DNA of 64,000 bases from IMG/VR virus record IMGVR_UViG_3300042905_002309, positions 1 to 64,000 of that record; one strand, 5' to 3'. The notes under the pieces are model-generated. The model made no database searches and was not told where the DNA came from. It saw only the letters and a program-made list of their open reading frames with translations. This document shows positions 37,826 through 52,172 of this stretch, one piece after another. Origin of the DNA: a virus. Position numbers and translations under genes: made by a program. Position 1 is the first letter of the stretch, and every line of letters begins with the position of its first letter.

Positions 37826-39796
37826 ATGGACTTTAAAACACTTTACAATGAAATATTAACCGAAGGTAAAACCGAACTAGAGAAAATTAAGGAAGAAATA
37901 GCTAAAATTAGTGTAAAATATGGTGAAAAAGCTGCTACTGCCTTGGAAAATTTGTTAGAAGTAGTACAGGCTCATTCAACTGCATTAAAAAGCTTCCAAA
38001 AAAAGACACCAAAACCAACTTTATCTAAAAAAATAGATATAAATAACCCTAAAAATAATAAAGAACGTGAAAAAATTAGTGAGTATAAGACAGCCCTTGT
38101 AGCATATAAAGCTGGATACGAAGATTTACAACACACAAAATTAAATGCTTTAGTTCCAATTTTAGATTCGGTTAAAGCAATTAATGTTCCTGAAAAAGAT
38201 CCGTGTGGATTAGAGTATACCCAAGGGAATTCAAAAGTTGGTGATGATACCATAATCATAAACATGGGACCAGCAACCGTATGTGACTCTGCTAAAGCAG
38301 GTAAATGTGATTTATACTTTTTGGGATTCTGCTATGCTCAAAATAACGAATCTACTCATAAACTCGCTATTGTTAAACGTTTTAGAGAAAAATTACAATG
38401 GAAATTCGGAAATCCTACCACTATAGCTACACAAATTTCAGATGTAATTTTAAAATTAAGAAAACGTGGTGATAAGATTAAATATGTACGTTTTAATGAG
38501 TCTGGTGATTTCGCAACACCTAATGATGCAACACCTAATGATGTCTCTAAATTTGAACAGGTTGTAGAAGAAACAAATAAATTATTAGGGAGTGATCCTG
38601 TTATATTCTACACCTATACACATAGAAGTGATTTATTCGAAACATATAAACCAAAATCTAAAGAACTTATTATTCAAGGATCAGGTAAATTTGGTGAAAC
38701 TGGTAAAGAAAAACCATTTTTTGTTCATAATTGTTTCATGGGTATTGATTATGGTATCGTTGTTAATTTATTAGAGAATGGTAAATTAAATGATTCAGAC
38801 GAATTAAAAACTGCACTAGGTTTACCGCTTGATAAACCTATTAAAAATGTTGTTTATTGTCCCGGTAATTGTTTTGGATGTCTATTATGCAAAACTAAAA
38901 AGGAAGGTGTTGATAATGGCAGGTTAATTTTAGTTATGAATCATGGTATGGGTGCGGAATTAACTAATGCTGTAAAAGATGTTACAAAACAACTTAGAGA
39001 TTTATTCAAACAAAATGCCAATCAGATTTTAAAATTAAATGCTAGTAATATTCCAGACGCTTTAAAAAAGGCTATTTTCTCCACTCAATATTTTCATGAG
39101 AATAGTGTCGTAGAAAAACTTCTTCTTTATACAATGCCTCGTTATAATAATAAAACTAAAGTAACTAAACCACCACTAGTTGATATTGATAGTATATATC
39201 CCTTCATTATGGATATGCGTGAGTCTTTTAAGAAAGAAGTAAAGGCAAATCCTAAATCACAAATTCTTAAAGCAACTAGAAGATTTTTAGACCTTCAAAC
39301 TGGTAAAGCTAGTGACGAAGCTCTATTACAATTTATTGATAAAACTCGACAGAAAATTAAAAGGGGTGAAGTTATTACTGATGTACCAGAAACAAGTGGT
39401 CCCACGGATGTTCCAACGGTTGCAGTGAATAGTAGTTATAAATTAAATGGTAATTTATTAACCGAAGGTAAAAAATTCGATATATCAAAAGTTTCATCAG
39501 TTAATTTGGCTAATATGGCTTTAGATGGTAGTCTTGCTAAATTTAATGGATTCAAAACTGAAAATGATTTATATCCAGACGGAAATCCTGATAAAGAAGT
39601 AGAAGAAACACCTCAACCTGCACCTGTTCAAGCTCCTACAGCTACCGCAATGCCTACTACTCCTGCTACACCTGCACCAACGGCTCCAACAGCCCCTACA
39701 ACAGGTGAAGTTGTAGCAGACAGTCTACGTGTTCAAAAGAATATGCGTAAGATTCTAGGAGAAAAGAAGTGTATTATTTTGAAGAACCGTCTTTAA
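37826..39796 (+). CDS. GP88-domain protein with N-terminal capsid-targeting-like sequence
   Basis: I start this 656-residue protein at 37826 (TGGAG 5 nt upstream; an in-frame ATG at 37814 lacks a site). The first residues MDFKTLYNEILTEGK match the F-x-x-L-x-x-x-I-L-x-E motif shared with 45899 and 51126. The cleavage consensus of T4 head protease is L/I-x-E, so cleavage after Glu13 is expected. The central part is a GP88-like domain: CDSAKAGKCDLYFLGFCYAQ, KYVRFNESGDF, VIFYTYTHRSD, then CPGNCFGCLLC, in the family order. A second LTEG (NGNLLTEGKK, near residue 545) precedes a Pro/Thr/Ala-rich tail. GP88 function is unknown; the Cys pattern suggests a metal or Fe-S site. Probably a packaged head protein. 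Confidence 0.78.
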   Translation: MDFKTLYNEILTEGKTELEKIKEEIAKISVKYGEKAATALENLLEVVQAHSTALKSFQKKTPKPTLSKKIDINNPKNNKEREKISEYKTALVAYKAGYEDLQHTKLNALVPILDSVKAINVPEKDPCGLEYTQGNSKVGDDTIIINMGPATVCDSAKAGKCDLYFLGFCYAQNNESTHKLAIVKRFREKLQWKFGNPTTIATQISDVILKLRKRGDKIKYVRFNESGDFATPNDATPNDVSKFEQVVEETNKLLGSDPVIFYTYTHRSDLFETYKPKSKELIIQGSGKFGETGKEKPFFVHNCFMGIDYGIVVNLLENGKLNDSDELKTALGLPLDKPIKNVVYCPGNCFGCLLCKTKKEGVDNGRLILVMNHGMGAELTNAVKDVTKQLRDLFKQNANQILKLNASNIPDALKKAIFSTQYFHENSVVEKLLLYTMPRYNNKTKVTKPPLVDIDSIYPFIMDMRESFKKEVKANPKSQILKATRRFLDLQTGKASDEALLQFIDKTRQKIKRGEVITDVPETSGPTDVPTVAVNSSYKLNGNLLTEGKKFDISKVSSVNLANMALDGSLAKFNGFKTENDLYPDGNPDKEVEETPQPAPVQAPTATAMPTTPATPAPTAPTAPTTGEVVADSLRVQKNMRKILGEKKCIILKNRL

Positions 39797-39993
39797 AACA
39801 GATTTCCACCAAAAATATCATTAAAAATACTACTATCAACCTTTGGTTCGGGTTTTCTGGCTTCTAAACCCTTATCAAAGGCTAATTTTAAAGCCTTCTT
39901 AAAGCCTTTCTTAGTCATTGTAATGGTTTCAGAATCGTTTCTGAGATTCACGTTCTTATTTTCTATAATAATCCATAATGTTTCAAAGTTCAT
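39793..39993 (-). CDS. Small protein, unknown, with own host-type promoter
   Basis: A 66-residue protein (TKKGFKKALKLAFDKGLEAR helix; C terminus SSIFNDIFGGNLF). It is preceded by a good host-type promoter (TTGACT-N16-TATATT) whose -10 box ends 6 nt before the ATG, so it is a real gene with a minimal leader. It converges with the GP88 gene, overlapping by 4 nt. Function unknown. Confidence 0.6.
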   Translation of the reverse strand: MNFETLWIIIENKNVNLRNDSETITMTKKGFKKALKLAFDKGLEARKPEPKVDSSIFNDIFGGNLF

Positions 39994-39999
39994 GTGAAT

Positions 40000-40027
40000 A
40001 ATATATCACTATTTTTGGAAAAGTCAA
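40000..40027 (-). promoter_or_regulatory. Host-type promoter
   Basis: Minus strand TTGACT, 16 nt, TATATT, directly in front of the 66-aa gene; the -35 box overlaps the T-run of the terminator of tRNA array 1. Confidence 0.65.
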
Positions 40028-40057
40028 CAAAAAACCCCAAACCTTTCGGAATGGGGT
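40026..40057 (-). terminator. Rho-independent terminator of tRNA array 1
   Basis: Minus strand hairpin ACCCCA..CCGAAAGG..TGGGGT with a GAAA loop followed by a T-run, about 30 nt after the last tRNA of the array. Confidence 0.8.
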
Positions 40058-40085
40058 AAAACGACGAATATAGATTGTTTCTAAA

Positions 40086-40160
40086 TGGTGCGGTATGGGA
40101 AATTCGAATTCCCAACAAAACATTGGCAATGTCTTATGTTACCATTACACTAATACCGCA
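40086..40160 (-). tRNA. tRNA-Gly(GCC)
   Basis: Acceptor TGCGGTA/TACCGCA, anticodon loop TTGCCAA, encoded CCA. The 3' end of the endonuclease gene at 40134 overlaps the first 27 nt of this tRNA. Confidence 0.85.
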
Positions 40161-41045
40161 TAAAAGTTTCTTTATCTGTTCAAAATATTTTAAACCATAC
40201 TGTTCATTAAAATTACCATCTTTAGATACATCAATGGTTATTAATTGTATATTGTTTTTAAGACATAATTCAGATTTAATTTTGTCTTTTTTTATATTAT
40301 TAATTAATCGCTTCTCACCATATATTGGTTTATAATGGATGATGCCGTTAAATTCAATTCCTAATTTATAATCAGGAAAATATAAATCTAGTTCATATGG
40401 ATTTATTATTTTTCTACTATTAAAAAGACATTTGGGTTTTAATGTTGTTAATATTTTATCTTTCAAATATTTCTCTAATTTAGATGTTGACGCATGTTTT
40501 ATATGATGTTGTAAATTATATTTATTTCTGCATGTCATATTACAAAATTGATTTGTTGTTTCCTTTTTGTAAGATTTACGTGTAAATTCTTTATTACAAT
40601 AAGTACAAATTAGTTGTTTTTCGTATACTTTAGTTCGATATTTAGTTCGATATTTACTTGCACACGATTTACTACAACATATTGCATCCTTTTCTCCACT
40701 ATGAAATGATATTTTACATTGTGGACATATTTTATTTGGTAGTTTATTTGCATTAAATTTACCAGAACACGTATGATTACAAAAATGATTATTAGATTTA
40801 ATAAAATCTTTATAAATTAATATTATATCGCAGCCACATTGTTTACATTTAGTGGATATACGATTTTGTTTAAACTTTGCTCTACATGTATTTGAGCAAC
40901 AGTCTAATTTTCTCCCACCAGACAAACAAGATAACACTTCATTTTTTGGTTTATAATAAATGTTATTACATTGTTTACATTTAAGTGGTATAGGATCACG
41001 ACTCTTATAATTTTTTAATTCTTCTATTGTTATTTGTATGTTCAT
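40134..41045 (-). CDS. PD-(D/E)XK (EDxHD/Vsr-like) homing endonuclease with zinc-ribbon repeats
   Basis: A 303-residue free-standing endonuclease inserted in the tRNA array. The first 185 residues carry five Cys-rich treble-clef-like units (CKQCNNIYY..CCSNTCRAK, CKQCGCDII..CNHTCSGK, CPQCKISFH..CCSKSCASK, CTYCNKEF..CNMTCRNK). The C-terminal catalytic part reads YELDLYFPDYKLGIEFNGIIHY, then KKDKIKSELCLKNNIQLITID, the pattern of Vsr-like/EDxHD nucleases (D-x-n, E-F-x-G, then D/K and C). The ATG follows CTAAATA-GTTAT directly, so the late mRNA should be leaderless. Its 3' end runs into tRNA-Gly(GCC). Likely homes into the tRNA region. Confidence 0.78.
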   Translation of the reverse strand: MNIQITIEELKNYKSRDPIPLKCKQCNNIYYKPKNEVLSCLSGGRKLDCCSNTCRAKFKQNRISTKCKQCGCDIILIYKDFIKSNNHFCNHTCSGKFNANKLPNKICPQCKISFHSGEKDAICCSKSCASKYRTKYRTKVYEKQLICTYCNKEFTRKSYKKETTNQFCNMTCRNKYNLQHHIKHASTSKLEKYLKDKILTTLKPKCLFNSRKIINPYELDLYFPDYKLGIEFNGIIHYKPIYGEKRLINNIKKDKIKSELCLKNNIQLITIDVSKDGNFNEQYGLKYFEQIKKLLCGISVMVT

Positions 41046-41050
41046 ATAAC

Positions 41051-41057
41051 TATTTAG
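41051..41057 (-). promoter_or_regulatory. Late promoter of the tRNA-array endonuclease
   Basis: Minus strand CTAAATA-GTTAT-ATG; identical layout to the promoters at 26976 and 62366. Confidence 0.6.
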
Positions 41058-41062
41058 TGAAA

Positions 41063-41141
41063 TGGAGCATCAGGCGGGTAACTCTCCCGCTTATATTATC
41101 CACATTGGAAGTGTGGTGCCTCAATTTTAGGCTACTGATGC
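41063..41141 (-). tRNA. tRNA-Gly(TCC)
   Basis: Acceptor GCATCAG/CTGATGC, anticodon loop CTTCCAA, encoded CCA. T-loop AGAGTTA departs from the TTCRANN consensus. Confidence 0.7.
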
Positions 41142-41147
41142 ATGAAT

Positions 41148-41224
41148 TGGAGCAGTAAGTCAGACTTCCACTGACTAAATGTGAGGTTGCAACTCACCGC
41201 TTCGTGTGTTTTAGCTTTTACTGC
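41148..41224 (-). tRNA. tRNA-Cys(GCA)
   Basis: Acceptor GCAGTAA/TTACTGC, anticodon stem-loop GTGAG-TTGCAAC-CTCAC, encoded CCA. T-loop TGGAAGT is non-canonical. Confidence 0.75.
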
Positions 41225-41231
41225 ATAAATA

Positions 41232-41306
41232 TGGCGAGTCAAATCGGCTATGCTCCGATATCAAAAGCGCAATAAGCTTCCGTTTTAATGTTTAAACTAT
41301 TGACTC
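41232..41306 (-). tRNA. tRNA with predicted anticodon ATT (identity uncertain)
   Basis: Acceptor GAGTCAA/TTGACTC and all arms form; anticodon loop TTATTGC would give ATT (Asn codons), an unusual anticodon. T-loop AGCATAG is non-canonical, so this may be decayed or shifted in function. Confidence 0.5.
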
Positions 41307-41312
41307 ATAAAA

Positions 41313-41398
41313 TGGCGGGGATGACGGGACTTAAACCCGCATTGCTTTTCAGCGTCACCGTGACAGGGTGATATGTCTATCAATTCCACCACATCCCC
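41313..41398 (-). tRNA. tRNA-Asp(GTC)-like with long variable arm
   Basis: Acceptor GGGGATG/CATCCCC, anticodon stem-loop TCACC-CTGTCAC-GGTGA, encoded CCA. The variable region forms GCT-GAAA-AGC, a class II-like arm not expected for Asp. Confidence 0.65.
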
Positions 41399-41404
41399 AA
41401 AAAA

Positions 41405-41480
41405 TGGTACTCGATCACAGAATCGAACTGTGATTTTCTGCATGTAAAACAGAAGTACTAGGCCGTTGTACGAATCGAGC
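41405..41480 (-). tRNA. tRNA-Val(TAC)
   Basis: Acceptor GCTCGAT/ATCGAGT, anticodon loop TTTACAT, T-loop TTCGATT, encoded CCA. Confidence 0.75.
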
Positions 41481-41745
41481 ATTAAATGGTCGAGAAAAGA
41501 CTCCGCTTTAAGAGGATTTCACTATTGTTCTGTTGGTTCTCCCTTCACTCACGGTGATGGAGCCAACATCTATCTCTCTTCTTAGTCTACCTGCACCTGA
41601 ACTGGTGCTGTTCCTTTAGCCAACTGGATTTCACTGTTGTTCTCTACGTGGAGCCATATATCCCGCTATAGTCGGGGTATGGACATGTATATGATCTATC
41701 AGTTGTGTTAACTATTTTCATGCAATTCTCTAGGGTTTAATCATT
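41481..41745. other. Unresolved structured region in tRNA array 1
   Basis: No tRNA or gene resolves here by eye. It ends at its left side in a CCA-like tgg (minus-strand ...CTCGACCA) and holds strong hairpins: TGTTGGCTCC paired with GGGAGAACCAACA, GCACC/GGTGC, and CCATACCCCG paired with CGGGATATATGG (T-arm-like 7-nt loop ACTATAG). The string GGATTTCACT-TTGTTCT occurs twice. Possibly decayed or highly divergent tRNAs, or an ncRNA. Confidence 0.45.
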
Positions 41746-41982
41746 ATGGAGAACTGCACTAAAATACGTTCAAAGCTAATTAAACTATCTCTCGAAATTG
41801 GTAACGGATCAAATAATGGTCGTAAATTTCAGGCTTGTTATGATCGTGGTATAGCACTTTGTATTATTGATTCATCTAAACAAAAGTATGTAAAGGAATC
41901 TAATAGTATCAAATTTCTTGATATCATAACTAACATAATAAACGAAAGTAGCGGGTCAATGAGTCGAACATTGAATGTATAG
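41746..41982 (+). CDS. Possible small protein (78 aa), doubtful
   Basis: An open frame with plausible composition (SKLIKLSLEIGNGSNNGRKF, SIKFLDIITNIINESSG) on the strand opposite to the tRNAs. No late or host-type promoter and no good ribosome site are visible (AGGG is 12 nt away). Its 3' end overlaps a tRNA-like sequence on the other strand, as the endonuclease gene at 40134 does. It may be a decayed mobile gene or chance. Confidence 0.3.
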   Translation: MENCTKIRSKLIKLSLEIGNGSNNGRKFQACYDRGIALCIIDSSKQKYVKESNSIKFLDIITNIINESSGSMSRTLNV

Positions 41983-42021
41983 GTTATGAGCCTCACCAGA
42001 AAACCCTTTCTAGCTACCCGC
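41950..42021 (-). tRNA. tRNA-Met(CAT)-like, degenerate
   Basis: GCGGGT/ACCCGC acceptor (6 bp), T-arm CAATG-TTCGACT-CATTG and loop CTCATAA are clear. The anticodon stem has two mismatches and no CCA is encoded, unlike the neighbours. Confidence 0.5.
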
Positions 42022-42033
42022 AAATTCTAAAAT

Positions 42034-42108
42034 TGGTGCCGATAGAGGGAATCGAACCCACGCAAATCTGCTTATGAAACAGACACTCAGCCATTGAGTG
42101 ATATCGGC
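42034..42108 (-). tRNA. tRNA-Met/Ile2(CAT)
   Basis: Acceptor GCCGATA/TATCGGC, anticodon stem-loop TCTGT-TTCATAA-GCAGA, T-loop TTCGATT, encoded CCA. CAT may read Met or, if C34 is modified, Ile (ATA). Confidence 0.8.
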
Positions 42109-42273
42109 GTAAAATAATACCAAGTGTCCTGAACCTCTAGACGACTGATGAACTTTCATTCACCAAGATGGATTCGAACCATCGTTTCTCAGTTGATTAA
42201 ACGCAAGTGGTCTACTATTAACCTACAATAGTTTGATCTATCGTTGGAAGTTGCATCCAAACTACTTGCTAAA
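42109..42273 (-). other. Spacer with isolated T-arm (decayed tRNA?)
   Basis: A perfect T-arm GATGG-TTCGAAT-CCATC (minus strand, 42177-42193) has no matching acceptor on either side. A hairpin ACTATT/AATAGT with a 7-nt loop and a GCAAGT/ACTTGC pair lie to the right. No complete cloverleaf found. Confidence 0.4.
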
Positions 42274-42347
42274 TGGTGGGAACAGAGAATTTCGAAATCT
42301 CATTGCTAGGGTTTCACTCTAGAGTACTGCCTTTGTACGACATTCCC
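42274..42347 (-). tRNA. tRNA-Phe(GAA)
   Basis: Acceptor GGGAATG/TGTTCCC, anticodon loop GTGAAAC, T-arm GAGAT-TTCGAAA-TTCTC, encoded CCA; the last anticodon-stem pair is A-C. Confidence 0.75.
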
Positions 42348-42548
42348 AAAAATCTATAGGTATCGTGTCCTAAAACGCTTACATTTACATGACTTTAAGT
42401 GTCATAATCAACTATCGCTGAAAATCTTCGAAATTCCGCTATAGTTGATTTGGAAATTGGTGTAGTCTCTCCTTACTGCCACTATTGACATGATCAGTGT
42501 ACGGCTGGATGTCATTTCGGGTTAGTTACCGTATCCATTTCTGGAAAT
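42348..42548. other. Structured spacer
   Basis: No gene. Holds a 9-bp stem ATCAACTAT/ATAGTTGAT (42407-42449), the hairpin ATGAC/GTCAT, and the string TATCGTGTC...ACGCTT, which recurs in the spacer at 53581-53600 of array 2. Confidence 0.4.
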
Positions 42549-42624
42549 TGGTGGAGCAGATGGGAGTTGAACCCACATTATGCCACATTGCAGGTGTGGT
42601 GCATGGCCTTTATGCTACTGCCCC
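42549..42624 (-). tRNA. tRNA-Ala(TGC)
   Basis: Acceptor GGGGCAG/CTGCTCC, anticodon stem-loop CCACA-CCTGCAA-TGTGG, encoded CCA. Position 33 is C instead of the invariant T. Confidence 0.75.
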
Positions 42625-42706
42625 ATAAAATATGTGCTGGATTTCACGAATGTTCCACCTACCACTCCACTGATCAGGTGGTTGTAAGGTGTCTATCAGC
42701 GTAACA

Positions 42707-42761
42707 GACTAGTATGTTTTTTTCTTAATAATAGAATTTTTTTGTTTGCTGGAACTAGTCT
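42707..42761 (-). repeat. tRNA-array structured element, copy D (short form)
   Basis: Outer stem AGACTAGT/ACTAGTCT encloses a T-rich stretch that ends in TTTGTTTGCTGGA directly before the right stem arm. It matches the right ends of copies A-C at 53736, 53840 and 54145. Confidence 0.5.
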
Positions 42762-42767
42762 AAATTG

Positions 42768-43067
42768 TTAAATGTCCGAAGCTTCTCTTGTGCGTCTATA
42801 ATCTTGGCTTCTTACATTGTTTTCTTCACTGGTTTGAAAATGGCTCGATACTGTTTCAACCTTCCATCCATTATCATCACCAATTCTTAAATACTTTCCT
42901 AAGATTGCATACTTTGCAGGTATGTAAGCTACTTGTGTAGCATTTTTCTTAGAGAGTGTGCATTGTTTGTAATCATTCTTCATGATTTGTCTTCTGATTG
43001 TTGTAGTGTCACTATCTTCATAGGGACTTCTTAAAACATTGTCAGGTGTACTTGGATAAACTTTCAT
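42768..43067 (-). CDS. Small protein inside tRNA array 1, unknown
   Basis: A 99-residue protein between tRNAs Ala and Glu. It starts MKVYPSTPDNVLRSPYED, has a central AKYAILGKYLRIGDDNGWKV beta segment, and a charged C terminus rich in Arg/Glu/Ser. GAAAGAAAG precedes the ATG. It is the only convincing minus-strand protein gene between tRNAs apart from the endonuclease. It reads like a small DNA- or RNA-binding protein but no family is recognised. Confidence 0.6.
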   Translation of the reverse strand: MKVYPSTPDNVLRSPYEDSDTTTIRRQIMKNDYKQCTLSKKNATQVAYIPAKYAILGKYLRIGDDNGWKVETVSSHFQTSEENNVRSQDYRRTREASDI

Positions 43068-43093
43068 AATTACTTTCTTTCTTTGTTAAAAAA

Positions 43094-43168
43094 TGGCACC
43101 CGATAGGGGTTTCGATCCCCTTTCTAGAGTTTGAAGGACTCCTATCCTAGCCAGTAGACGAATCGGGT
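43094..43168 (-). tRNA. tRNA-Glu(TTC)
   Basis: Acceptor ACCCGAT/ATCGGGT, D-arm of Glu type (TTCGTCTACTGGCTAGGAT), anticodon loop CCTTCAA with C at position 33, encoded CCA. Confidence 0.8.
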
Positions 43169-43177
43169 GTGTTAAAA

Positions 43178-43252
43178 TGGCACCTCATGAGGGTATCGAT
43201 CCCTCTCCTACAGATTGAGAATCTATCGACCTAGCCACTAGTCCAATGAGGT
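43178..43252 (-). tRNA. tRNA-Glu(CTC)
   Basis: Acceptor ACCTCAT/ATGAGGT, anticodon stem-loop ATAGA-TTCTCAA-TCTGT, T-loop ATCGATA, encoded CCA. Body similar to the Glu(TTC) gene next to it. Confidence 0.75.
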
Positions 43253-43259
43253 ATTAAAG

Positions 43260-43348
43260 TGGTGCATCTGACAAGAGTTGAACTTGTATTTGCCTAACGG
43301 CCTTTTGGGTTCGTAGCCCAACGTGCTAATCCATTACACTACAGATGC
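43260..43348 (-). tRNA. tRNA-Arg(ACG) with long variable arm
   Basis: Acceptor GCATCTG/CAGATGC, anticodon TTGGG-CTACGAA-CCCAA, encoded CCA. The variable region contains GCC-GTTA-GGC, a class II-like arm unusual for Arg. Confidence 0.78.
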
Positions 43349-43355
43349 ATAAAAA

Positions 43356-43431
43356 TGGTGCAGACACTAGGATTTTAACCTAGAACAAGAGGATAGGAAC
43401 CTCACATGATGTACACTTTCACCATGTCTGC
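43356..43431 (-). tRNA. tRNA-Arg(CCT)
   Basis: Acceptor GCAGACA/TGTCTGC, anticodon TGAGG-TTCCTAT-CCTCT, T-arm CTAGG-TTAAAAT-CCTAG, encoded CCA. Confidence 0.8.
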
Positions 43432-43437
43432 ATGAAA

Positions 43438-43513
43438 TGGCGCAGATACCAAGATTCGAACTTGGAATTAAAGGGTAGAAACCTATCGTGATAGTCCGTT
43501 TCACTATACCTGC
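43438..43513 (-). tRNA. tRNA-Arg(TCT)
   Basis: Acceptor GCAGGTA/TATCTGC, anticodon loop TTTCTAC, T-arm CCAAG-TTCGAAT-CTTGG, encoded CCA. Confidence 0.8.
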
Positions 43514-43521
43514 ATTAAAAT

Positions 43522-43597
43522 TGGAGCCAACAGTGACAATCGAAGTCACAGCCTTCACATTACCAATGTGATGTTCCGCCACTTGAACTATGTTGGC
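43522..43597 (-). tRNA. tRNA-Thr(GGT)
   Basis: Acceptor GCCAACA/TGTTGGC, anticodon TCACA-TTGGTAA-TGTGA, T-arm GTGAC-TTCGATT-GTCAC, encoded CCA. Confidence 0.85.
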
Positions 43598-43602
43598 AAA
43601 AA

Positions 43603-43679
43603 TGGTCGGTCTGGTGGAAGTCGAATCCACATTATACTGGTTAAGAGCCAGTTCTATATGCCTTTCTAGTCACAGACCG
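43603..43679 (-). tRNA. tRNA-Lys(CTT)
   Basis: Acceptor CGGTCTG/CAGACCG, anticodon ACTGG-CTCTTAA-CCAGT, T-arm GTGGA-TTCGACT-TCCAC, encoded CCA. Confidence 0.85.
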
Positions 43680-43684
43680 ATAAA

Positions 43685-43759
43685 TGGTGCTCCTATTGGG
43701 TATCGAACCCACTTCCCAAGGGTAAAAGCCTCGTGTTAATCCACTACAACTCTAGGAGC
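43685..43759 (-). tRNA. tRNA-Lys(TTT)
   Basis: Acceptor GCTCCTA/TAGGAGC, anticodon CGAGG-CTTTTAC-CCTTG, T-loop TTCGATA, encoded CCA. Confidence 0.85.
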
Positions 43760-43769
43760 GTAAAAAAAT

Positions 43770-43849
43770 TGGTGCGCCGAGTGAGAATTGAACTCACCTC
43801 GATCAATGTATAAGATTGAGCTAAATGCTACCAGCTTAGTTTTCGGCGC
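43770..43849 (-). tRNA. tRNA-Ile(TAT)
   Basis: Acceptor GCGCCGA/TCGGCGC, anticodon TCAAT-CTTATAC-ATTGA, T-arm GTGAG-TTCAATT-CTCAC, encoded CCA. Confidence 0.85.
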
Positions 43850-43853
43850 AAAA

Positions 43854-43931
43854 TGGTCAGCTAGGTCAGACTTGAACTGACAATATTCCTGTATCCAAAA
43901 CAGGTCGCCTACCAATTGGCATCACTAGCTG
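43854..43931 (-). tRNA. tRNA-Pro(TGG)
   Basis: Acceptor CAGCTAG/CTAGCTG, anticodon CCTGT-TTTGGAT-ACAGG, T-arm GTCAG-TTCAAGT-CTGAC, encoded CCA. Confidence 0.85.
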
Positions 43932-43964
43932 ATTAAAATTATTTGTGGTCTATCCCCACCGTCA

Positions 43965-44046
43965 AATCAATGCTGGTTCACTTTAATCCTGTTGACCAGT
44001 AAATTCACCTATCACATCAGGGTTCGTAGGTGAAGATGTATTGATT
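43965..44046 (-). ncRNA. Structured spacer element with paired ends
   Basis: A 7-bp outer stem AATCAAT/ATTGATT encloses two hairpins (CTGGT/ACCAG and TTCACCTA/TAGGTGAA). The next tRNA begins 4 nt after it. It is tRNA-sized with an acceptor-like closing stem, but no cloverleaf or T-loop is present. Comparable paired-end spacers lie at 42407-42449 and 52445-52601. Confidence 0.45.
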
Positions 44047-44050
44047 AAAT

Positions 44051-44127
44051 TGGTCGGAGTAACAGGGATCGAACCTGCATGACTTATGGGCCCAGGCCAT
44101 ACGCTTCGCCAATTAAGCTATACTCCG
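44051..44127 (-). tRNA. tRNA-Pro (anticodon TGG by position)
   Basis: Acceptor CGGAGTA/TACTCCG, anticodon stem-loop TATGG-CCTGGGC-CCATA, T-loop TTCGATC, encoded CCA. With 5 bp in the stem the anticodon is TGG with C33; a GGG reading would need a shifted loop. Confidence 0.65.
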
Positions 44128-44133
44128 ATAAAA

Positions 44134-44210
44134 TGGTCGGCTATGGTGGTAACGATCCACCCTTCTCTGTGTATCAGACAGAAGTAATCAAACCTATATA
44201 CTAATAGCCG
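44134..44210 (-). tRNA. tRNA-Ile(GAT)
   Basis: Acceptor CGGCTAT/ATAGCCG, anticodon TCTGT-CTGATAC-ACAGA, encoded CCA. Confidence 0.8.
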
Positions 44211-44216
44211 ATAAAA

Positions 44217-44309
44217 TGGTGGCAATAGTAGGAATCGAACCTACCGTGTTTACCCGAAGGGAACAGATTTACAGTCTGCTACGACACAACCAATAGTCGT
44301 CTTACTGCC
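44217..44309 (-). tRNA. tRNA-Tyr(GTA)
   Basis: Acceptor GGCAGTA/TATTGCC, anticodon loop CTGTAAA, long variable arm with CCC-TTC-GGG as usual for bacterial Tyr, encoded CCA. First tRNA of array 1 in transcription order. Confidence 0.9.
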
Positions 44310-45496: not shown

Positions 45497-45909
45497 ATAT
45501 TACTCCCTACATTCGTCTTTAGTTGTCCTGTATACGCAGGATCAAGCTTGTGACGTTGGGCTGTCTCTCGTTCTACAGCTTTATCATGTGCATCATTGTA
45601 ATCCATCTTTGGATCAGCCTTCATTAATGATCTTTCATATACTTCGTGTTGAAAATTAAACCACATTTCCTTACGATCTTCCATCTCTTCTACCCAAATC
45701 TCGTCTTTAGGTACGTAGTCATAAACATATCCGTGTCCCCCTTCGACAAAATCAACATTAATATTTGAACGAACAAAATCACCATTTACAATGTATACGT
45801 TTACACCTTTAGCAATCTTGCTGTAGTTTGGCGAAAAGTGTTTCCAAGCTTGTTTTCCCGCTACCTTGGCATAATCTTTGAAATTCTTGAATGTGTGTTT
45901 AGTTTCCAT
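45493..45909 (-). CDS. Small zincin-like conserved protein
   Basis: A 138-residue protein with the order NVYIVNGDFVRSNINVDFVE, GGHGYVYDYVPKDEIWVEEM, then FQHEVYERSLM and YNDAHDKAVERE. I recognise this order from a conserved phage/archaeal/bacterial family whose HE-xx-ER helix resembles the metal site of minimal zinc peptidases. Whether it is catalytic is unknown. Overlaps the upstream metalloprotease gene by 11 nt, so two zincin-like proteins are encoded back to back. Confidence 0.65.
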   Translation of the reverse strand: METKHTFKNFKDYAKVAGKQAWKHFSPNYSKIAKGVNVYIVNGDFVRSNINVDFVEGGHGYVYDYVPKDEIWVEEMEDRKEMWFNFQHEVYERSLMKADPKMDYNDAHDKAVERETAQRHKLDPAYTGQLKTNVGSNI

Positions 45910-46996
45910 TTGGCTCCGGTGTCTTTTGTTTTAAAATATCAGCAGTAAGGCTTCTTACAAGAGATTTAATTCTATTGATATCATCTGATGCATCTACATT
46001 GACAAACGCTGTATAAATTTTACTCAATATCTTTCGATATAATGGCTCATTCTTCTTGAAATTATCAAGATACTTATACATCCACTCCAATGTACCACGT
46101 TGTTTGCTATTATGGTATAAGAATCTATCACGATTAACAACCTGACTATAAAAGTCTTTCTTTGTCATATCTGAATGATAGGTGTAATACATATATTGTA
46201 ATCTACGAATAAAACTAACTAAATTTGTGTAATATTCGATTGGTCGCTTAACATGTTCAACTCTTCGTGTACCTTCTGTCTCTTGTGCGATTAATTTTGG
46301 TTTTCTTCCTAATGATGGTATTTTCATTAGGACTTTAGAAATAGCTTCTTCGGCTGATTTAGCAGATATTACGATAAGTTTGTTATTATATGCAAATGAT
46401 TGTCCATCCTTTTGCATTTCTGGTGTAGTTATTGTCCATTTCTTCAATTTATCAATCTTATAACCACGCATAGTGACATCAGTAGGTAACATCTTTCTTG
46501 ATGGAGTACCACCAATATGCTTTTCATACTCTTTAATTGACATATCTGGTAATAAACCCTTTTTAATCTTATAAGTCACTATCAAATACTGAATATAATG
46601 TAATAATTCATGTTCAGTTACATGTAATAGAAGTTCTGTTAAATTACTGTTTAAACTGATAGTAATATAACCTACACCATCTTTGATATTCTTTCCAAGG
46701 TCTTTATTTTCAGGATTAGTTTTAGTGAAAAAACTATCTTCATATTTATTGTTATTAATTAAGATGATATGAGGGTTTATTTCGTTCAAAAAAGCCCAAT
46801 TAGTGCCACTGAAATCAATAGCAAAATCTTTATTAGGAAAGGATTTACCTGAAAGCCGTTTAATACCTTCCCCTCGCACTTTCTTATAAGAGGCTATGAT
46901 TTGATCTTCAATATCCTTAAAAACATGCTTTGCGAGTGATATTGTCTCTAGTAGTATAGTCTCATCTAGTTTTGTAAAAATATTAAACTTAATCAT
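45899..46996 (-). CDS. HExxH zinc metalloprotease-like protein with capsid-targeting-like N terminus
   Basis: A 365-residue protein starting at 46996, where the ATG lies 5 nt after a perfect TATAAATA late promoter (leaderless; the frame to 47023 is ignored). HELLH at about 129-133, in HVTEHELLHYIQYL, is the zinc-binding helix of gluzincin/metzincin-type peptidases. The N terminus FNIFTKLDETILLE fits the shared F-x-x-L-x-x-x-I-L-x-E motif, with predicted head-protease cleavage after Glu17. The rest is basic and helical (Lys/Arg-rich, RKPKLIAQETEG). I infer a protease packaged in the head and delivered with the DNA, but neither packaging nor activity is shown. Confidence 0.7.
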   Translation of the reverse strand: MIKFNIFTKLDETILLETISLAKHVFKDIEDQIIASYKKVRGEGIKRLSGKSFPNKDFAIDFSGTNWAFLNEINPHIILINNNKYEDSFFTKTNPENKDLGKNIKDGVGYITISLNSNLTELLLHVTEHELLHYIQYLIVTYKIKKGLLPDMSIKEYEKHIGGTPSRKMLPTDVTMRGYKIDKLKKWTITTPEMQKDGQSFAYNNKLIVISAKSAEEAISKVLMKIPSLGRKPKLIAQETEGTRRVEHVKRPIEYYTNLVSFIRRLQYMYYTYHSDMTKKDFYSQVVNRDRFLYHNSKQRGTLEWMYKYLDNFKKNEPLYRKILSKIYTAFVNVDASDDINRIKSLVRSLTADILKQKTPEPNGN

Positions 46997-47001: not shown

Positions 47002-47009
47002 TATTTATA
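47002..47009 (-). promoter_or_regulatory. T4-like late promoter of the metalloprotease gene
   Basis: Perfect TATAAATA on the minus strand, 5 nt (GTTAC) before the ATG; it overlaps the 3' end of the upstream gene. Confidence 0.7.
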
Positions 47010-47292
47010 CACAATTCGGACAAATATAAGACATTTTTTTACCATGAAAAATCCAACCTACCCTAGCAGCTTCTTTCCAAGTGGTTTCTCGCTTACACCC
47101 CCCACAAAGAATCATGAAATTAGACGATAAAACCTCATCATAAACCAAATTTATAATGTTTTTATCCACTTTAGGTTTTGTAAGAAGTTTCTTGGATGTT
47201 TTCTTACAAGGTTTTGTCTGAAATTGTGCTTCTTTTTCAGACAAAACCTCAGAGTTAATTAAATTCAAAAGACTGTTTAAAGAGTCATTCAT
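47005..47292 (-). CDS. Small protein with C-terminal zinc ribbon
   Basis: A 95-residue protein. The C terminus has CGGCKRETTWKEAARVGW and YICPNCV, a CxxC/CxxC zinc ribbon. The N terminus SLLNLINSEVLSEKE loosely recalls the capsid-targeting-like motif but with one extra residue, so I do not count it. The middle is Lys-rich. Its ATG follows the previous stop by 1 nt. The late promoter of the metalloprotease gene overlaps its end. Confidence 0.6.
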   Translation of the reverse strand: MNDSLNSLLNLINSEVLSEKEAQFQTKPCKKTSKKLLTKPKVDKNIINLVYDEVLSSNFMILCGGCKRETTWKEAARVGWIFHGKKMSYICPNCV

Positions 47293-47293: not shown

Positions 47294-47785
47294 TTAATCG
47301 TGTTCTACTTTACATTCCAAGGTTTTCTTAATCTCAAATAAGTAATACATACAGATACTCTTTAAAAGATCAGGAACATCACAGATAGAGTTATGCATAG
47401 ATGAATCGCCAGTTAAGATGATATCTCCGTTATAAAATTTAGTTTGAATACGATAATACTGATTCAAAATATCTGTCACAAGTTCTGCATCAGGTTGGAC
47501 ATACTGATATCCACCAAGTCCACTATCTTCTTTTAATGCTTCCAATCTAGCGATTAATGTGGTAAGTTGTTCTGTCTCGCGTCTAAAATGTTTACCCATT
47601 AATTCGTTTCCCATAATATCTTTACGTCTATCGGTAAAGCGTTCAATCAAACTTTCTGGTTCAAAATAATCATACTGAAATTCTTGTGCAATTGACTCAC
47701 AAAAATCCATTATATTCACATCGTGAATACGTACAATATAACTTGCACTTGAACTGTTACTTACAAAACCGTTTCTTAATTTCAT
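47294..47785 (-). CDS. SNSSS-motif protein 1
   Basis: A 163-residue protein that begins MKLRNGFVSNSSSASYIV. This N-terminal motif (FVSNSSS-x-S-aromatic) occurs at the start of many otherwise unrelated phage and bacterial proteins and has no settled function. The following part is helical and acidic (ERFTDRRKDIMGNELMGKHF, LTTLIARLEALKED). I start it at 47785, where ATGA overlaps the upstream stop. Together with the next gene it forms a tandem pair sharing only the N-terminal motif. Confidence 0.65.
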   Translation of the reverse strand: MKLRNGFVSNSSSASYIVRIHDVNIMDFCESIAQEFQYDYFEPESLIERFTDRRKDIMGNELMGKHFRRETEQLTTLIARLEALKEDSGLGGYQYVQPDAELVTDILNQYYRIQTKFYNGDIILTGDSSMHNSICDVPDLLKSICMYYLFEIKKTLECKVEHD

Positions 47786-48030
47786 GATCTCTCCCAATTT
47801 ACTATATCTTCTTCGACTCCAATGTTCACTAAAAATTCACGCATATCAAAATTATCCATAGAAGTATAACCTTCTACTGTGTGTGTTGTAACAGTAATAG
47901 TCCAAGGATTGTCATTAGTATGATCTGAATGATTCACAATATCAACTAATTGTTTAGCTGTAATCTTTATTAAAGGGATTACAAAGCTACTTGAGCTACT
48001 ATTACTTACAAATCCAATTCTTATTTTCAT
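47782..48030 (-). CDS. SNSSS-motif protein 2
   Basis: An 82-residue protein starting MKIRIGFVSNSSSSSFVIPL, almost identical to the start of the downstream gene over 17 residues and then unrelated (ITAKQLVDIVNHSDHTND, VTTHTVEGYTSMDNFDMREF). The ATG at 48030 is 1 nt after the previous stop; a longer frame to 48168 overlaps the previous gene and lacks the motif at its start. Function unknown. Confidence 0.65.
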   Translation of the reverse strand: MKIRIGFVSNSSSSSFVIPLIKITAKQLVDIVNHSDHTNDNPWTITVTTHTVEGYTSMDNFDMREFLVNIGVEEDIVNWERS

Positions 48031-48226: not shown

Positions 48227-49011
48227 GTTTGACTCCTTATTAATTCTATAATATTTGGTGGTGTATAATATTTTTTGAGTTTACTTAAATCCATAATACT
48301 ATTTACCAAATGTAATCCTTGTTGTCTACGTATTTCTTCAATACTGATAATCTCTTTCTTCATTCCCATCAATAATCCGATTTCATGCATACTGACATAA
48401 CCATCACATGCCACATTATAGGCTCCTGTGCATTCATTATCAATCAAAATCTTAATCGCTTTTGTTAATATTGTAACATTGGTTACACTGTCCTTTTCGT
48501 CACACAACTTATCAAAGCGTTTTATTTTGTTTAGTAAATTGTTTTCACGAGCACTAAAATCAAAAAATAATCTTGGTCGTATAATCAAATCTCTGTCAAA
48601 ATCACAACCCTTTTCGCCATGCCATTTTGTTAAGGTGTAATTACAATGTGCGGAAAGAAAATCTGTCTCCTTTTGTGGTGTATCGTTTCTGTCGTATAAG
48701 CAACCAGTTGAAATCTGTACAAATTTCTTATTACCACCATTGCACCATTGACTTAAAACCTGTGGAATAACAGCATTACTAAAAAATGCCTCATTATAAT
48801 TCTCTTCACAATATCTAGTATTACTCTTCGCAATACAATTTATTACCACATCAAATTTATCTAATTTTCTTGCCATATAAAACGGAAATTCTAATGAATC
48901 GTTTATTTGGATTTGTGATAAATTGAACCTTTCCTTATCAAGAACCGTATAATGAAGTTTTTCGAACTCATGTCCTAAATACCCCGAACCTAATACTACA
49001 ACTTTATTCAT
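48223..49011 (-). CDS. NAD-dependent epimerase/reductase (RmlD-like SDR)
   Basis: A 262-residue extended short-chain dehydrogenase. MNKVVVLGSGYLGHEF is the NAD-binding Gly motif, VVINCIAKSNTRYCEENY the second strand region, FVQISTGCLYD the Ser/Thr strand, and NYTLTKWHGEK the catalytic YxxxK. Closest in style to dTDP-4-dehydrorhamnose reductase. It acts on a nucleotide sugar, so it may feed the same host or virion glycan pathway as the cassette at 4.5-9 kb. Start at 49011 is supported by GGAGAAGTAAGT; the frame to 49059 overlaps the upstream gene. Confidence 0.8.
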   Translation of the reverse strand: MNKVVVLGSGYLGHEFEKLHYTVLDKERFNLSQIQINDSLEFPFYMARKLDKFDVVINCIAKSNTRYCEENYNEAFFSNAVIPQVLSQWCNGGNKKFVQISTGCLYDRNDTPQKETDFLSAHCNYTLTKWHGEKGCDFDRDLIIRPRLFFDFSARENNLLNKIKRFDKLCDEKDSVTNVTILTKAIKILIDNECTGAYNVACDGYVSMHEIGLLMGMKKEIISIEEIRRQQGLHLVNSIMDLSKLKKYYTPPNIIELIRSQT

Positions 49012-49013
49012 AC

Positions 49014-49205
49014 TTACTTCTCCATATGTATCGTTTTTCGACAAAGAATTTCCTGACAAAACATTTTTACTGCATCAGGTGCTTTATTAAACTCATCTAC
49101 AGCCTCATCATATAACCATTTTGTTAAGTATTGTACCTGTGATCCATTTTTATAGACCACTACATAAGATTTAGATTCAATAAATTCTTCTACTTTTTGT
49201 TTCAT
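49014..49205 (-). CDS. Small protein, unknown
   Basis: A 63-residue protein (SYVVVYKNGSQVQYLTKWLY, then KMFCQEILCRKTIHMEK). Start overlaps the stop of the SLOG gene (ATGA), and the stop is 2 nt before the epimerase start. Not recognised. Confidence 0.6.
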   Translation of the reverse strand: MKQKVEEFIESKSYVVVYKNGSQVQYLTKWLYDEAVDEFNKAPDAVKMFCQEILCRKTIHMEK

Positions 49206-49555
49206 ACTGTTATAATCTCCTTACCACCTTTAATACCTTTACGTATAGTGTCCTCAGTTCCCCCTGTACGATCATCTGATACTACAGCCAATATCACATC
49301 AGCATCATCAGCTATTAACCCATTACGTTGGAAACCAGCACTCTTTCCATACTTTCGCCAATCAGCGTAATGTATTCTGATAGGAATGTCAAGATGTTTT
49401 GCAATAATTTCAGCAAATCTATCTCCACCTTGTGGACATCCTCCGCTACACAAAGAGTCTCCCCTGCGATAAATCTCTAAGAATTTATTCAAACAACGTT
49501 TGAAATCTTCTGGTGAGTTTTTACGTCTAGAACCGATTATGCCGATTACTTTCAA
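49202..49555 (-). CDS. SLOG-family (YspA-like) Rossmann protein
   Basis: A 117-residue protein: GIIGSRRKNSPEDF at the N terminus, SLCSGGCPQGGDRFAEIIAK, IHYADWRKYGKSAGFQRNG, then DVILAVVSDDRTGGTEDTI. This is the order of the SLOG/DUF2493-like fold, which binds nucleotides or ADP-ribose derivatives. Related proteins occur in signalling and phage-defence contexts. Overlaps both neighbours by ATGA. Role could be nucleotide sensing or counter-defence; untested. Confidence 0.78.
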   Translation of the reverse strand: MKVIGIIGSRRKNSPEDFKRCLNKFLEIYRRGDSLCSGGCPQGGDRFAEIIAKHLDIPIRIHYADWRKYGKSAGFQRNGLIADDADVILAVVSDDRTGGTEDTIRKGIKGGKEIITV

Positions 49556-49845
49556 TCATACTCCTTAATAGAAACACCGGGAGATTCCATTCCAGTAAAT
49601 CGTGTATCACCTTCTGGTATACATACGGGACAAGCTTCGTCATGTGCATAATCTGGACAAATACAAACTGGTGGACGTTTATTCCAAACTTCAATAGCTT
49701 GTTCATCTGTAGTAAACCATACACCCGCACCCAAAGAACCACCACATTGTTTCTCGTCTATACAACTTACAAACTTCTCACCAAAACCACCAGTGAAGAC
49801 TTGTGCTTCACCACCACAAAACGGACAAGGAAAAATTTTATTCAT
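49552..49845 (-). CDS. Lar-like zinc-ribbon protein
   Basis: A 97-residue protein. CPFCGGEAQVF, then FVSCIDEKQC, then DEQAIEVWNKRP is the pattern of the Lar restriction-alleviation-like family (CPFCGG ... WNxR). The C-terminal CICPDYAHDEACPVC adds a second Cys cluster. Lar of Rac prophage modulates type I restriction, but most relatives are uncharacterised. First gene after a host-type promoter (TTGACA-N16-TATGAT), consistent with early expression. Confidence 0.72.
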   Translation of the reverse strand: MNKIFPCPFCGGEAQVFTGGFGEKFVSCIDEKQCGGSLGAGVWFTTDEQAIEVWNKRPPVCICPDYAHDEACPVCIPEGDTRFTGMESPGVSIKEYD

Positions 49846-49851
49846 GTAAAT

Positions 49852-49879
49852 ATCATACCAGATTTATTAGGATTGTCAA
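49852..49879 (-). promoter_or_regulatory. Host-type promoter of the Lar/SLOG/epimerase operon
   Basis: Minus strand TTGACA, 16 nt, TATGAT, ending 6 nt before the ATG; the -35 box overlaps the 3' end of the aminomutase gene. Confidence 0.65.
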
Positions 49880-51009
49880 CCATTATAATAATCAGTTAAC
49901 TCACCCTTATAATTCTCAATAACAACATTCACACCTTCTACACTTTTAATGTAGTTGTAAATAATAGGTATCTTTCCACCACCAGCGGGTAAGTCTACAA
50001 CTAATTGAGGTATAGCATATCCACTAATATTACCTCTAATGCTTTTAAAAATCTCAATACCCTTCTCAATAGTTGTTCTAAAATGACCTGAACCAGTTAC
50101 CTTATCACAAATGTATGTATAATAAGGCTTTACACGTATTTTTAATAACCCTGTGAATAATTTTTTAAGGGTTTCACTATCATCATTAACATCTTTCAAT
50201 AATACTGTCTGACTTCCTAAAGGTATACCTGCATCAGCCAATCTATTACAAGCTTCTTGGGTTTCTGGTGTCAATTCACTAGGATGTGTGAAATGTAGAC
50301 TCATAAACAATGGATGATATTGTTTTAACATGTCAGTTAATTCTTTTGTAATACGTTGAGGTAATACAGCAGGAATTTTTGTACCAATTCGAATCATTTC
50401 AACATGAGGAATTTTACGTAAATTTGAAAGTATCCATTCTAAGGTTTCTGTTGGTAAAGTTAAAGGATCACCACCAGAAATTAACACATCTCGTATCTCT
50501 TTATGTTCTTCGATGTATTTAAGTGACTTCATCCATTGTTCTTTAGTATATGTTTTATCTTTACCAACCATACGTGATCGTGTACAATACCTACAAATGG
50601 TGCTACAATAGTCTGTAACGAGAAATAATACTCTATCTGGATATCTGTGTACCAAACCATCTACAGGGCTTTGGTTGATCTCATGAAGTGGATCATCTTG
50701 TTCACATTGTGAGATGATATGTTCCTCATCGGAAGGCATTACTGTTTTTCTTAGCTTATCACCCAATATGGATGCATAATAAGGAGTAATACCCATAGGA
50801 AATTTGTAATTATTATCAGTAGTATCGATAATTCGGTTTCTTAATTGCCATCTCCAATCATTCCATTCAACATAAGGTACACTTGGATAGTTTTGCTCCA
50901 TAAACCCATGTGTTATTGGGCCTATGGGCATACTACTCGGAGGCTTATCTGATTCTTCGGAACAACACTCAACAGCTTCAACCACATCGACGATTTTTTC
51001 ATTTTGCAT
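49876..51009 (-). CDS. kamA: L-lysine 2,3-aminomutase-like radical SAM enzyme
   Basis: A 377-residue PLP-dependent radical SAM enzyme. CSTICRYCTRSR gives Cys at 135, 139 and 142; LISGGDPLTLP is the SAM-binding GGD/E motif; YAIPQLVVDLPAGGGKIP contains the PLP Lys (about 346) in the family's GGGK loop. Length and order fit KamA (about 400). KamA makes beta-lysine; the close relative EpmB acts on a lysine used to modify elongation factor P. It is monocistronic, with a late-type CCTAAATA and an AAGGGAAG element upstream. A lysine aminomutase is a surprising phage gene. Substrate (free lysine or a modified residue or base) is not decided. Confidence 0.88.
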   Translation of the reverse strand: MQNEKIVDVVEAVECCSEESDKPPSSMPIGPITHGFMEQNYPSVPYVEWNDWRWQLRNRIIDTTDNNYKFPMGITPYYASILGDKLRKTVMPSDEEHIISQCEQDDPLHEINQSPVDGLVHRYPDRVLFLVTDYCSTICRYCTRSRMVGKDKTYTKEQWMKSLKYIEEHKEIRDVLISGGDPLTLPTETLEWILSNLRKIPHVEMIRIGTKIPAVLPQRITKELTDMLKQYHPLFMSLHFTHPSELTPETQEACNRLADAGIPLGSQTVLLKDVNDDSETLKKLFTGLLKIRVKPYYTYICDKVTGSGHFRTTIEKGIEIFKSIRGNISGYAIPQLVVDLPAGGGKIPIIYNYIKSVEGVNVVIENYKGELTDYYNG

Positions 51010-51038
51010 ATATATAATATTTTTACTTCCCTTAAATG

Positions 51039-51046
51039 TATTTAGG
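51039..51046 (-). promoter_or_regulatory. Possible late promoter of the aminomutase gene
   Basis: Minus strand CCTAAATA-CATTT, about 30 nt before the ATG. Confidence 0.45.
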
Positions 51047-51083
51047 TATATTAACCTAAAATTCTTGAACTTTTTTAATGTAT

Positions 51084-51120
51084 CATAAATAGATGAAAAT
51101 TACAAGGTATTTGATAAATA
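51084..51120 (+). promoter_or_regulatory. Two late promoter motifs in front of the 348-aa gene
   Basis: CATAAATA (51084-51091) and GATAAATA (51113-51120). The second is followed by CTTAT-ATG, the same spacing as the leaderless genes. Confidence 0.55.
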
Positions 51121-51125
51121 CTTAT

Positions 51126-52172
51126 ATGAATATTTTTCGTACTCTATATGAACAGATACTTTTTGAAGCACTTTGGGACTCTGATGCAGTAAATACCGGA
51201 GATTCCCCATTCTTAGGGAATGTGTATCGTGTTTATGAGTTGGAATACAAGCTTCAAGCCCTAAAACGCTCACAATTAGGTATATCTAATCCTAAAAGAT
51301 TGGAAAATATCACTAGACAAGTACAATTAGAACTTGGTTCTGCTGGTATGGCACTTAAACAAATTTTATTGAATACTTTTGCGCTTTGGTTACAACAACA
51401 TGCTTTAACTAAACCTCAAATTTGGGCAGAAGGACGTTATAATACATTTACGGAATCTGGTGACGATGATCCAAATACAATGATGGAAGGTATTGTTGGT
51501 GAATATAGTAGATATGCTACTGGTGGTAAAGTTGATAGATATGGTGTACGTGCGATGTTATCTGTTGACCAATTCTTTCCAATAATCGATAAAAATTTAA
51601 AAAATCTTCCATACACTAAATCCGTTCTTGATTCTGTTTATAAAATTTACATGCAAGAAGAATATGATAATGATCCAGAAGGTACTATGGAACGTTGGGG
51701 GATATCTACACCAGAAGAAGCTGATCAACATATTGAAACATCTACTTTAGATCAAGATGGACTTGAAGGTATGGTATATGACATGGAATCTTTAATGGGG
51801 ATTATAGAACAACATGGAGAGTTATCAAAATTCTTCATTGAACTTTATGCGAAACTTGTTTTCCCTGTTTGGTTTGCACATTGGAAGGCTCAAGGTATCG
51901 TGGAAACTCGTAAACGTGTTCAAAATGTTTATAATAATCTTAAAAAAGCTTCTCCAAAGGATTTGGGTAATCTAGTTGCATGGCTTAGTGCAGCTTTAAA
52001 TACTGCTCATCAATCTGGTTCAATGTTAGATTTTGTTCCAGAAGATGATAACTTCTCTGTAAACATTGATGGCGCAGAAGATACCTATTATGCAAAAGAT
52101 TTATTAGATGCTGTAACAGATGGTAAATTCAATGACCAATGGGATAAAGAATTAGCCGAAGCTGGTGTGTAA
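51126..52172 (+). CDS. Putative packaged head protein with capsid-targeting-like N terminus
   Basis: I start this 348-residue protein at 51126 because the ATG sits 5 nt after GATAAATA; an in-frame ATG at 51093 is possible. MNIFRTLYEQILFEALW matches F-x-x-L-x-x-x-I-L-x-E, with predicted cleavage after Glu14. The remainder is helical and acidic (YELEYKLQALKRSQLGISNP, GMVYDMESLMGIIEQHGELS, NLVAWLSAALNTAHQSG); no catalytic motif is recognised. It stands alone on the plus strand between the aminomutase gene and tRNA array 2. Late expression and the shared N terminus suggest an internal head protein like T4 IPI-III or Alt in concept, not in sequence. Confidence 0.68.
   Translation: MNIFRTLYEQILFEALWDSDAVNTGDSPFLGNVYRVYELEYKLQALKRSQLGISNPKRLENITRQVQLELGSAGMALKQILLNTFALWLQQHALTKPQIWAEGRYNTFTESGDDDPNTMMEGIVGEYSRYATGGKVDRYGVRAMLSVDQFFPIIDKNLKNLPYTKSVLDSVYKIYMQEEYDNDPEGTMERWGISTPEEADQHIETSTLDQDGLEGMVYDMESLMGIIEQHGELSKFFIELYAKLVFPVWFAHWKAQGIVETRKRVQNVYNNLKKASPKDLGNLVAWLSAALNTAHQSGSMLDFVPEDDNFSVNIDGAEDTYYAKDLLDAVTDGKFNDQWDKELAEAGV

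Follow-up and report, generated by a model that had tools for sequence, protein, structure and literature searches.

The first 64,000 bases of a 248,016-base T4-like virus record (IMGVR_UViG_3300042905_002309; hereafter, this stretch is the window) contain three genes, starting at 37826 (+), 46996 (−) and 51126 (+), whose otherwise unrelated products share an 11-residue motif, F-x-x-L-x-x-x-I-L-x-E. Among the open reading frames (ORFs) of the window, only these three match the strict motif near the N-terminus. We consider it probable that the motif is an extended version of the T4 capsid-targeting sequence (CTS) and that it feeds an open set of cargo proteins, enzymes included.

To score the leaders we built an 11-mer matrix from ten leaders of four related phages (G001 to G004, found through relatives of the major capsid protein [MCP] with 61–67% identity) and from no sequence of the record under study. 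Applied record-wide to 347 genes, the matrix placed 51126, 37826 and 46996 first, second and third, and each of the three leaders scored at about 5e-5 per sequence window, as judged against 56,007 internal windows. The training leaders had been picked by an N-terminal pattern, so that an N-terminal position is built in for the relatives, not for the ranking in the record itself. A degenerate form of the motif gave four N-terminal matches, against 0.64 expected from internal positions. In three of five records, moreover, a loose leader pattern matched more often than in any of 500 shuffles of the N-termini (23 matches versus a shuffle mean of 6.8 and a maximum of 15; 23 versus 5.9 and 14; and 16 versus 5.7 and 13).

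Three leader genes of the window

The features of the three genes are as follows (ranks are those of the matrix among 347 genes).

37826..37864 (+): CTS-like leader MDFKTLYNEILTE, predicted cut after E13 (from the translation; rank 2)
37826..39796 (+): 656-residue candidate cargo protein with a GP88 domain at residues 148–273, beyond the leader (PF17338, E = 1.7e-7)
37800..37807 (+): late-promoter-like sequence CATAAATA, 18 nt upstream of the 37826 start
46946..46996 (−): CTS-like leader MIKFNIFTKLDETILLE, possible cuts after E12 and E17 (from the translation; rank 3)
45899..46996 (−): 365-residue candidate cargo protein with HELLH at residues 129–133, a metallopeptidase-like motif only
47002..47009 (−): late promoter TATAAATA, 5 nt before the ATG of 46996
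51126..51167 (+): CTS-like leader MNIFRTLYEQILFE, predicted cut after E14 (from the translation; rank 1)
51126..52172 (+): 348-residue candidate cargo protein, probably helical, of no family (low-confidence model)
51113..51120 (+): late-promoter-like sequence GATAAATA, 5 nt before the ATG of 51126

An earlier description made from the letters alone (the sequence-only reading) had pointed to these three N-termini, and its starts proved exact to the base. It had also assigned TATAAATA-like promoters to all three genes, and a TAAATA late-promoter core does lie 5–18 nt upstream of each. In-frame alternative starts are present farther upstream (ATG at 37814, TTG at 47023 and ATG at 51093), but the downstream starts are favored because of the 5-nt promoter spacing at 46996 and 51126 and because of a GGAG at 37826. 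Automatic calling of the first ATG therefore loses two of the three leaders.

The leaders are 13, 14 and 17 residues long, and beyond residue 18 the three proteins have no significant similarity to one another (best E = 0.1), in agreement with the claim that their bodies are unrelated. As for the nature of these bodies, the GP88 domain held up, whereas the protease proposed at 46996 has its HExxH motif and no support from Pfam, and the helical character proposed for the 51126 product was predicted weakly. AlphaFold run without an alignment gave poor models, with pLDDT values of 40 and 43, the latter for the 51126 protein. Homologues of the three bodies were found neither in INPHARED nor in 12 related records, and the only copies recovered were identical ones in two IMG/VR contigs. 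A search of PDB with the three bodies returned no credible homologue, and the 46996 protein had none in Pfam, PDB or phage searches. None of the three matched the IP or Alt families in Pfam or PHROGs, searches that distant homology could escape.

Two tRNA arrays of the window (40086–44309 and 52359–54389, −), comprising 36 tRNA genes, are interleaved with the three leader genes; ORFs within the arrays were disregarded as spurious.

Leader genes beyond the window

The count of three turned out to be too low: all three are real, but about 17 leader-like N-termini are present record-wide. One cluster, at 84.5–92.7 kb, comprises MATKFEKYFSKTLINE/A, MKFDQLYKIMVNE/A, MSKFDTLIEQFKMLLE/A, MRKFDRAIEQKMKIYE/A, MKFLDIFKAHLNE/V (a slash marks the cut, predicted in the record's proteins) and one longer leader. 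A second, at 140.8–154 kb, includes MKTFKQFILE/S, MKTFKQFMLE/S on a GNAT protein, MKTFSEFINE/S on a protein that weakly matches a nucleotidyltransferase, MKTDMRQNEFYKNYKEVIEE/D on an SLT-like protein (a match below the Pfam cut-off), MNLFEQMYKDVLLNE/S and others. At 231 kb (231272–232732), MNTFNKLYNSLTE/A precedes a CCA-adding polymerase with an HD domain. Thus, the record has long-type leaders (MKFDQLYKIMVNE/A, MNLFEQMYKDVLLNE/S and MNTFNKLYNSLTE/A) alongside T4-type ones. The N-terminus at 32313 (MFTDFKSKFSMLCEE) was dropped as too loose.

Two proteins also carry internal copies of the motif: FDKLYASVLNE/E at residue 89 of 145254–146126 (+) and SFKHFMFLE/DA at about residue 430 of 146220–147863 (+). 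It looks as if both proteins were cut more than once.

The sequence-only reading had turned on the leader being less common among early proteins, and its distribution bore this out. We drew two early blocks from gene content, 93–119.8 and 154.2–225 kb, which together hold 171 of the 347 genes; none of the 17 leader genes, a set curated by eye, lies within them (Fisher p = 1e-5), nor does any of the top nine matrix matches (p = 0.0035). TAAATA is found within 40 nt upstream of 12 of the 17, as compared with 42 of 159 other late-side genes (p = 4e-4) and 12 of 171 early-block genes. Judging from their promoter boxes and their location outside the early blocks, the three leader genes of the window are probably expressed late. 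Exactly 5 nt is the commonest spacing from TAAATA to ATG (14 genes: 46996 [−], 51126 [+], 40134 [−], 21408 [−], 26314 [−] and about nine others), which suggests late mRNAs that are leaderless or nearly so.

The bodies behind the leaders turn over among relatives. By blastp, 94 of the 347 genes match G001 to G004 or T4, and the three leader bodies are not among them; the scaffold and protease are 35–44% identical between the record and its relatives. Equivalent leaders in the relatives sit on different bodies; in G003, for example, MKPFKQFLTE begins a protein that is NMNAT-like by its GxFxPxHxGH motif only. Such turnover is the pattern reported for the internal proteins of T-even phages, in which the bodies are diverse and the leader is conserved (PMC3012670).

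T4 leaders, cyanophage virions and the capsid arm

The record encodes the machinery with which such leaders would work.

62481..63944 (−): MCP, homologue of gp23 (PF07068, E = 4.6e-89)
63774..63944 (−): MCP propeptide, residues 1–57, ending in YLTE and followed by NSFAGQGGVFG; the leaders resemble this sequence

The MCP is about 34% identical to cyanophage gp23. As had been noted from the sequence, its propeptide carries LTE, here within YLTE, whose E is residue 57, and we infer from 80 relatives and from T4 gp23 that the cut falls after this residue. A gene for an S77 prohead protease (PF03420, E = 5.7e-21) lies beside the MCP gene just beyond the window; a scaffold gene, whose product contains ILTE, also adjoins it there (T4_CASP, E = 5.6e-6, slightly under the curated cut-off). 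Thus, a gp21-type S77 protease coexists in the record with the [I/L]xE motif, which reads LTE, LLE and LFE in the three leaders.

The requirement in T4 IPIII lies in its first ten residues (MKTYQEFIAE), of which positions 4 and 7, aromatic or hydrophobic, act in targeting, and I8 and E10 in cutting (PMC9026906). Our T4 control sequences were MKTFKEF of IPI and MKTYQEFIAE/A of IPII and IPIII. The short leaders of the record, MKTFKQFILE, MKTFKQFMLE and MKTFSEFINE, match this CTS at residues 4, 7, 8 and 10, and the 7-residue spacing of T4, YxxFIxE, is present in 140852, 141432 and 146220. The three window leaders keep the targeting pair, F4/L7 in 51126 and F4/F7 in 46996 being at the IPIII positions and F3/L6 in 37826 one residue earlier; they lack the T4 spacing, however, spanning 11 residues.

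The resemblance to the gp21-cut proteins IPI, IPII, IPIII and Alt of T4 thus extends to an N-terminal leader of 10–19 residues that is portable across unrelated bodies, to an aromatic or hydrophobic pair three residues apart with an [I/L]xE cut site, and to the presence of an S77 protease and a gp22-type scaffold within one genome. The 11-residue form differs in having four inserted residues that separate the targeting pair from the cut site, and the record differs in having about 17 candidate carriers rather than 4 and in including enzymes, such as the CCA-adding polymerase and GNAT, among its candidate cargo. Phage P1 offers another N-terminal packaging signal, in that the first 30 residues of DarB send a reporter into the head, but the Dar proteins have no shared sequence consensus according to the authors (PMC9024508). 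Head propeptides of SPN3US and phiKZ are likewise N-terminal and cut after Glu by a gp21-related prohead protease; in contrast to the record's leaders, they are mostly far longer (>100 residues), and the SPN3US cut motif is AxE (PMC5694885).

Evidence from virions came from two cyanophages, S-CREM2 and S-SCSM1. For S-CREM2, an isolated T4-like phage, 52 of 219 proteins are listed as virion proteins (Table 3 of PMC10665884). A T4-type pattern, whose positions were taken from T4 and whose final form was fixed after the N-termini had been inspected, matched four coding sequences, and all four products are in that list (versus 52/219; p = 0.0029). They are a SAM hydrolase (MKDFDSFLEE), an APH-like kinase (MKRFDAFLTE), a cytidylyltransferase (MKNFSSFLTE) and gp136 (MQTFSMFFSE). 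With the proteins considered restricted to those not listed as structural, the figures are 4/4 versus 28/195 (p = 0.00035). A broader pattern placed five of seven matches in the list (p = 0.009), and our first loose pattern alone placed four of nine, which is not significant (p = 0.14). Near forms occur on two further virion proteins, gp13 (MKDLHSFLTE) and a Cas9-like nuclease (RFASFMAE/A, residues 18–25).

Applied unchanged to S-SCSM1, the pattern gave two matches, the virion-detected NMNAT (MKSFLQFLKE/A) and ORF30 (MKTFKQFMSE/S). Homologous NMNATs have kept the leader in P-SSM2 (MKSFSQFLTE), S-CRM01 (MKLFNQFFKE) and DSL-LC02 (MKRFLQFLSE); those of Bellamy and S-CAM9, as annotated, lack it. 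The virion enzymes of these cyanomyoviruses resemble the record's short leaders in starting with MK-x-F-x-x-F-L-x-E and differ from the record in having the 7-residue form only. The leader goes unmentioned in the available portions of the S-CREM2 and S-SCSM1 papers.

A further kind of protein carries a copy of the capsid protein's N-terminal arm. After the cut, the MCP of this clade begins roughly xNxAGxGGVFG...YAxGDARLPKxLIPMIRRTFPELIT (80 sequences). When the MCP arm of each genome was aligned to all proteins of that genome, one non-capsid protein stood out in each of G000, G001, G003, G004, S-SCSM1 and S-CREM2, with scores of 116, 84, 67, 84, 83 and 95, respectively, the next best being 39–58. 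The same alignment found no such protein in T4; in G002 an arm copy is recognizable by eye, but it is not distinct from low-complexity proteins.

91596..92693 (−) (= L003:8596-9693): arm-copy protein of the record; relatives are L114, L135, L106 and G001:69823-70065

In four relatives a copy of the post-cut MCP sequence comes immediately after the E of the leader, as in MSNFFQLLIEQVLE/NMNTAGAGGVFG...KKKVKKKKTPIIRRTFPETIW, and arm-copy proteins often have a lysine-rich stretch. Two that match the cyanophage MCP arm, S-CREM2 gp160 and S-SCSM1 ORF97, are virion proteins. PHROGs places arm-copy proteins under "major head protein" (phrog_696), and a full-text literature search found no paper describing such a protein.

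Proposed head cargo and its alternatives

By analogy with T4, the three window proteins would be packaged, cut and injected, and the 11-residue form would work like the 7-residue T4 form. Late in infection, these three and about a dozen others would be made with an N-terminal leader of 10–17 residues. An aromatic residue at position 3 or 4 and a hydrophobic one three residues on would attach to the scaffold core as the prohead grows, in the manner of Y4 and F7 of IPIII; the S77 protease would cut after [I/L/V]-L-x-E, freeing mature cargo inside the capsid, and the cargo would leave the capsid together with the DNA and enter the next host. Such a leader would be portable, being found on unrelated bodies within one phage and on different bodies among relatives. 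The sequence-only reading had likewise proposed head cargo, and this proposal is supported by the early-gene test, by the protease, scaffold and gp23 genes, by the IPIII residue rule and by S-CREM2; that these particular three are packaged, cut and injected is the part that we infer.

Several observations weigh against assigning the leaders to head cargo. The enrichment of the loose pattern was not significant in two of the five records (G002 and G004), and the set of 17 was chosen by eye. The hydrophobic moments of the leaders were not above those of shuffles, and we therefore do not claim that they form an amphipathic helix. The 11-residue pattern has no match in S-CREM2, whose virion test covers the 7-residue form, and ORF30 of S-SCSM1 carries the leader without a virion-protein label. 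Finally, the S-CREM2 authors could not exclude contaminants in the CsCl-purified particles that they analyzed by mass spectrometry (PMC10665884), although the leader common to the virion enzymes argues for true cargo over contaminants.

The most serious alternative, albeit an unlikely one, is that the leader is the scaffold- or protease-binding part of core proteins that are consumed in assembly, like T4 gp22, gp67 and gp68, and so serves head building without injection. The best-scoring internal copy of the motif does lie in an acidic protein (145254–146126), the scaffold has its ILTE, core proteins with multiple cuts may be among the carriers, and IPIII itself helps head assembly (PMC9026906); but several carriers have enzyme domains (GNAT, and the CCA-adding polymerase with HD) or GP88, and leader-bearing enzymes remain in purified S-CREM2 particles. 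Less likely still is coincidence. Short hydrophobic N-termini ending in E would be frequent in an AT-rich phage, and the reader would have picked three look-alikes; the loose pattern does have a background of about 6–7 per genome, and two records show no significant enrichment. The matrix trained outside the record largely refutes this explanation by ranking precisely these leaders at the top, and the excess of N-terminal matches, the early blocks devoid of leader genes and, in S-CREM2, the link between T4-type leaders and proteins of the particle speak against it as well. We regard as very improbable an address other than the head, such as a membrane or a tail assembly site: residues 2–25 of the 37826 protein do have a sub-threshold match to VASP_tetra (E = 0.0067), but T4 gp21 is of the type that cleaves at [IL]xE before a small or polar residue, and in small relatives the copied capsid arm comes straight after the E.

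A broader proposal built on head targeting, which we advance tentatively, is of an open cargo system in which any gene could become head-bound by gaining a leader of 10–17 residues, with a set that turns over almost fully between relatives and with enzymes delivered before phage gene expression. Each phage would in addition have one dedicated protein with an arm copy, often directly after such a leader; rich in lysine, this protein could plausibly line or anchor the capsid from within by taking up the sites where the arm binds. The CCA-adding enzyme, in a phage that has 36 tRNA genes in the window alone, would be an example of a delivered enzyme. Separately, we note a family of small proteins with a common N-terminus like MKIRNGFVSNSSSSSF and different bodies, located at 219213–221415 (+), within the early region, and with a single member in the window (47294–47797, −); this N-terminus is putatively another shared tag.

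If the leaders do direct proteins to the head, a short N-terminal sequence would predict, from the genome alone, the proteins injected along with the DNA of a T4-like phage, and many uncharacterized late genes would become candidates for first-minute factors of host takeover or counter-defense. It would also offer a possible explanation for the enzymes repeatedly reported in cyanophage particles, and it would add a second, longer leader design for the loading of proteins into T4-type heads.

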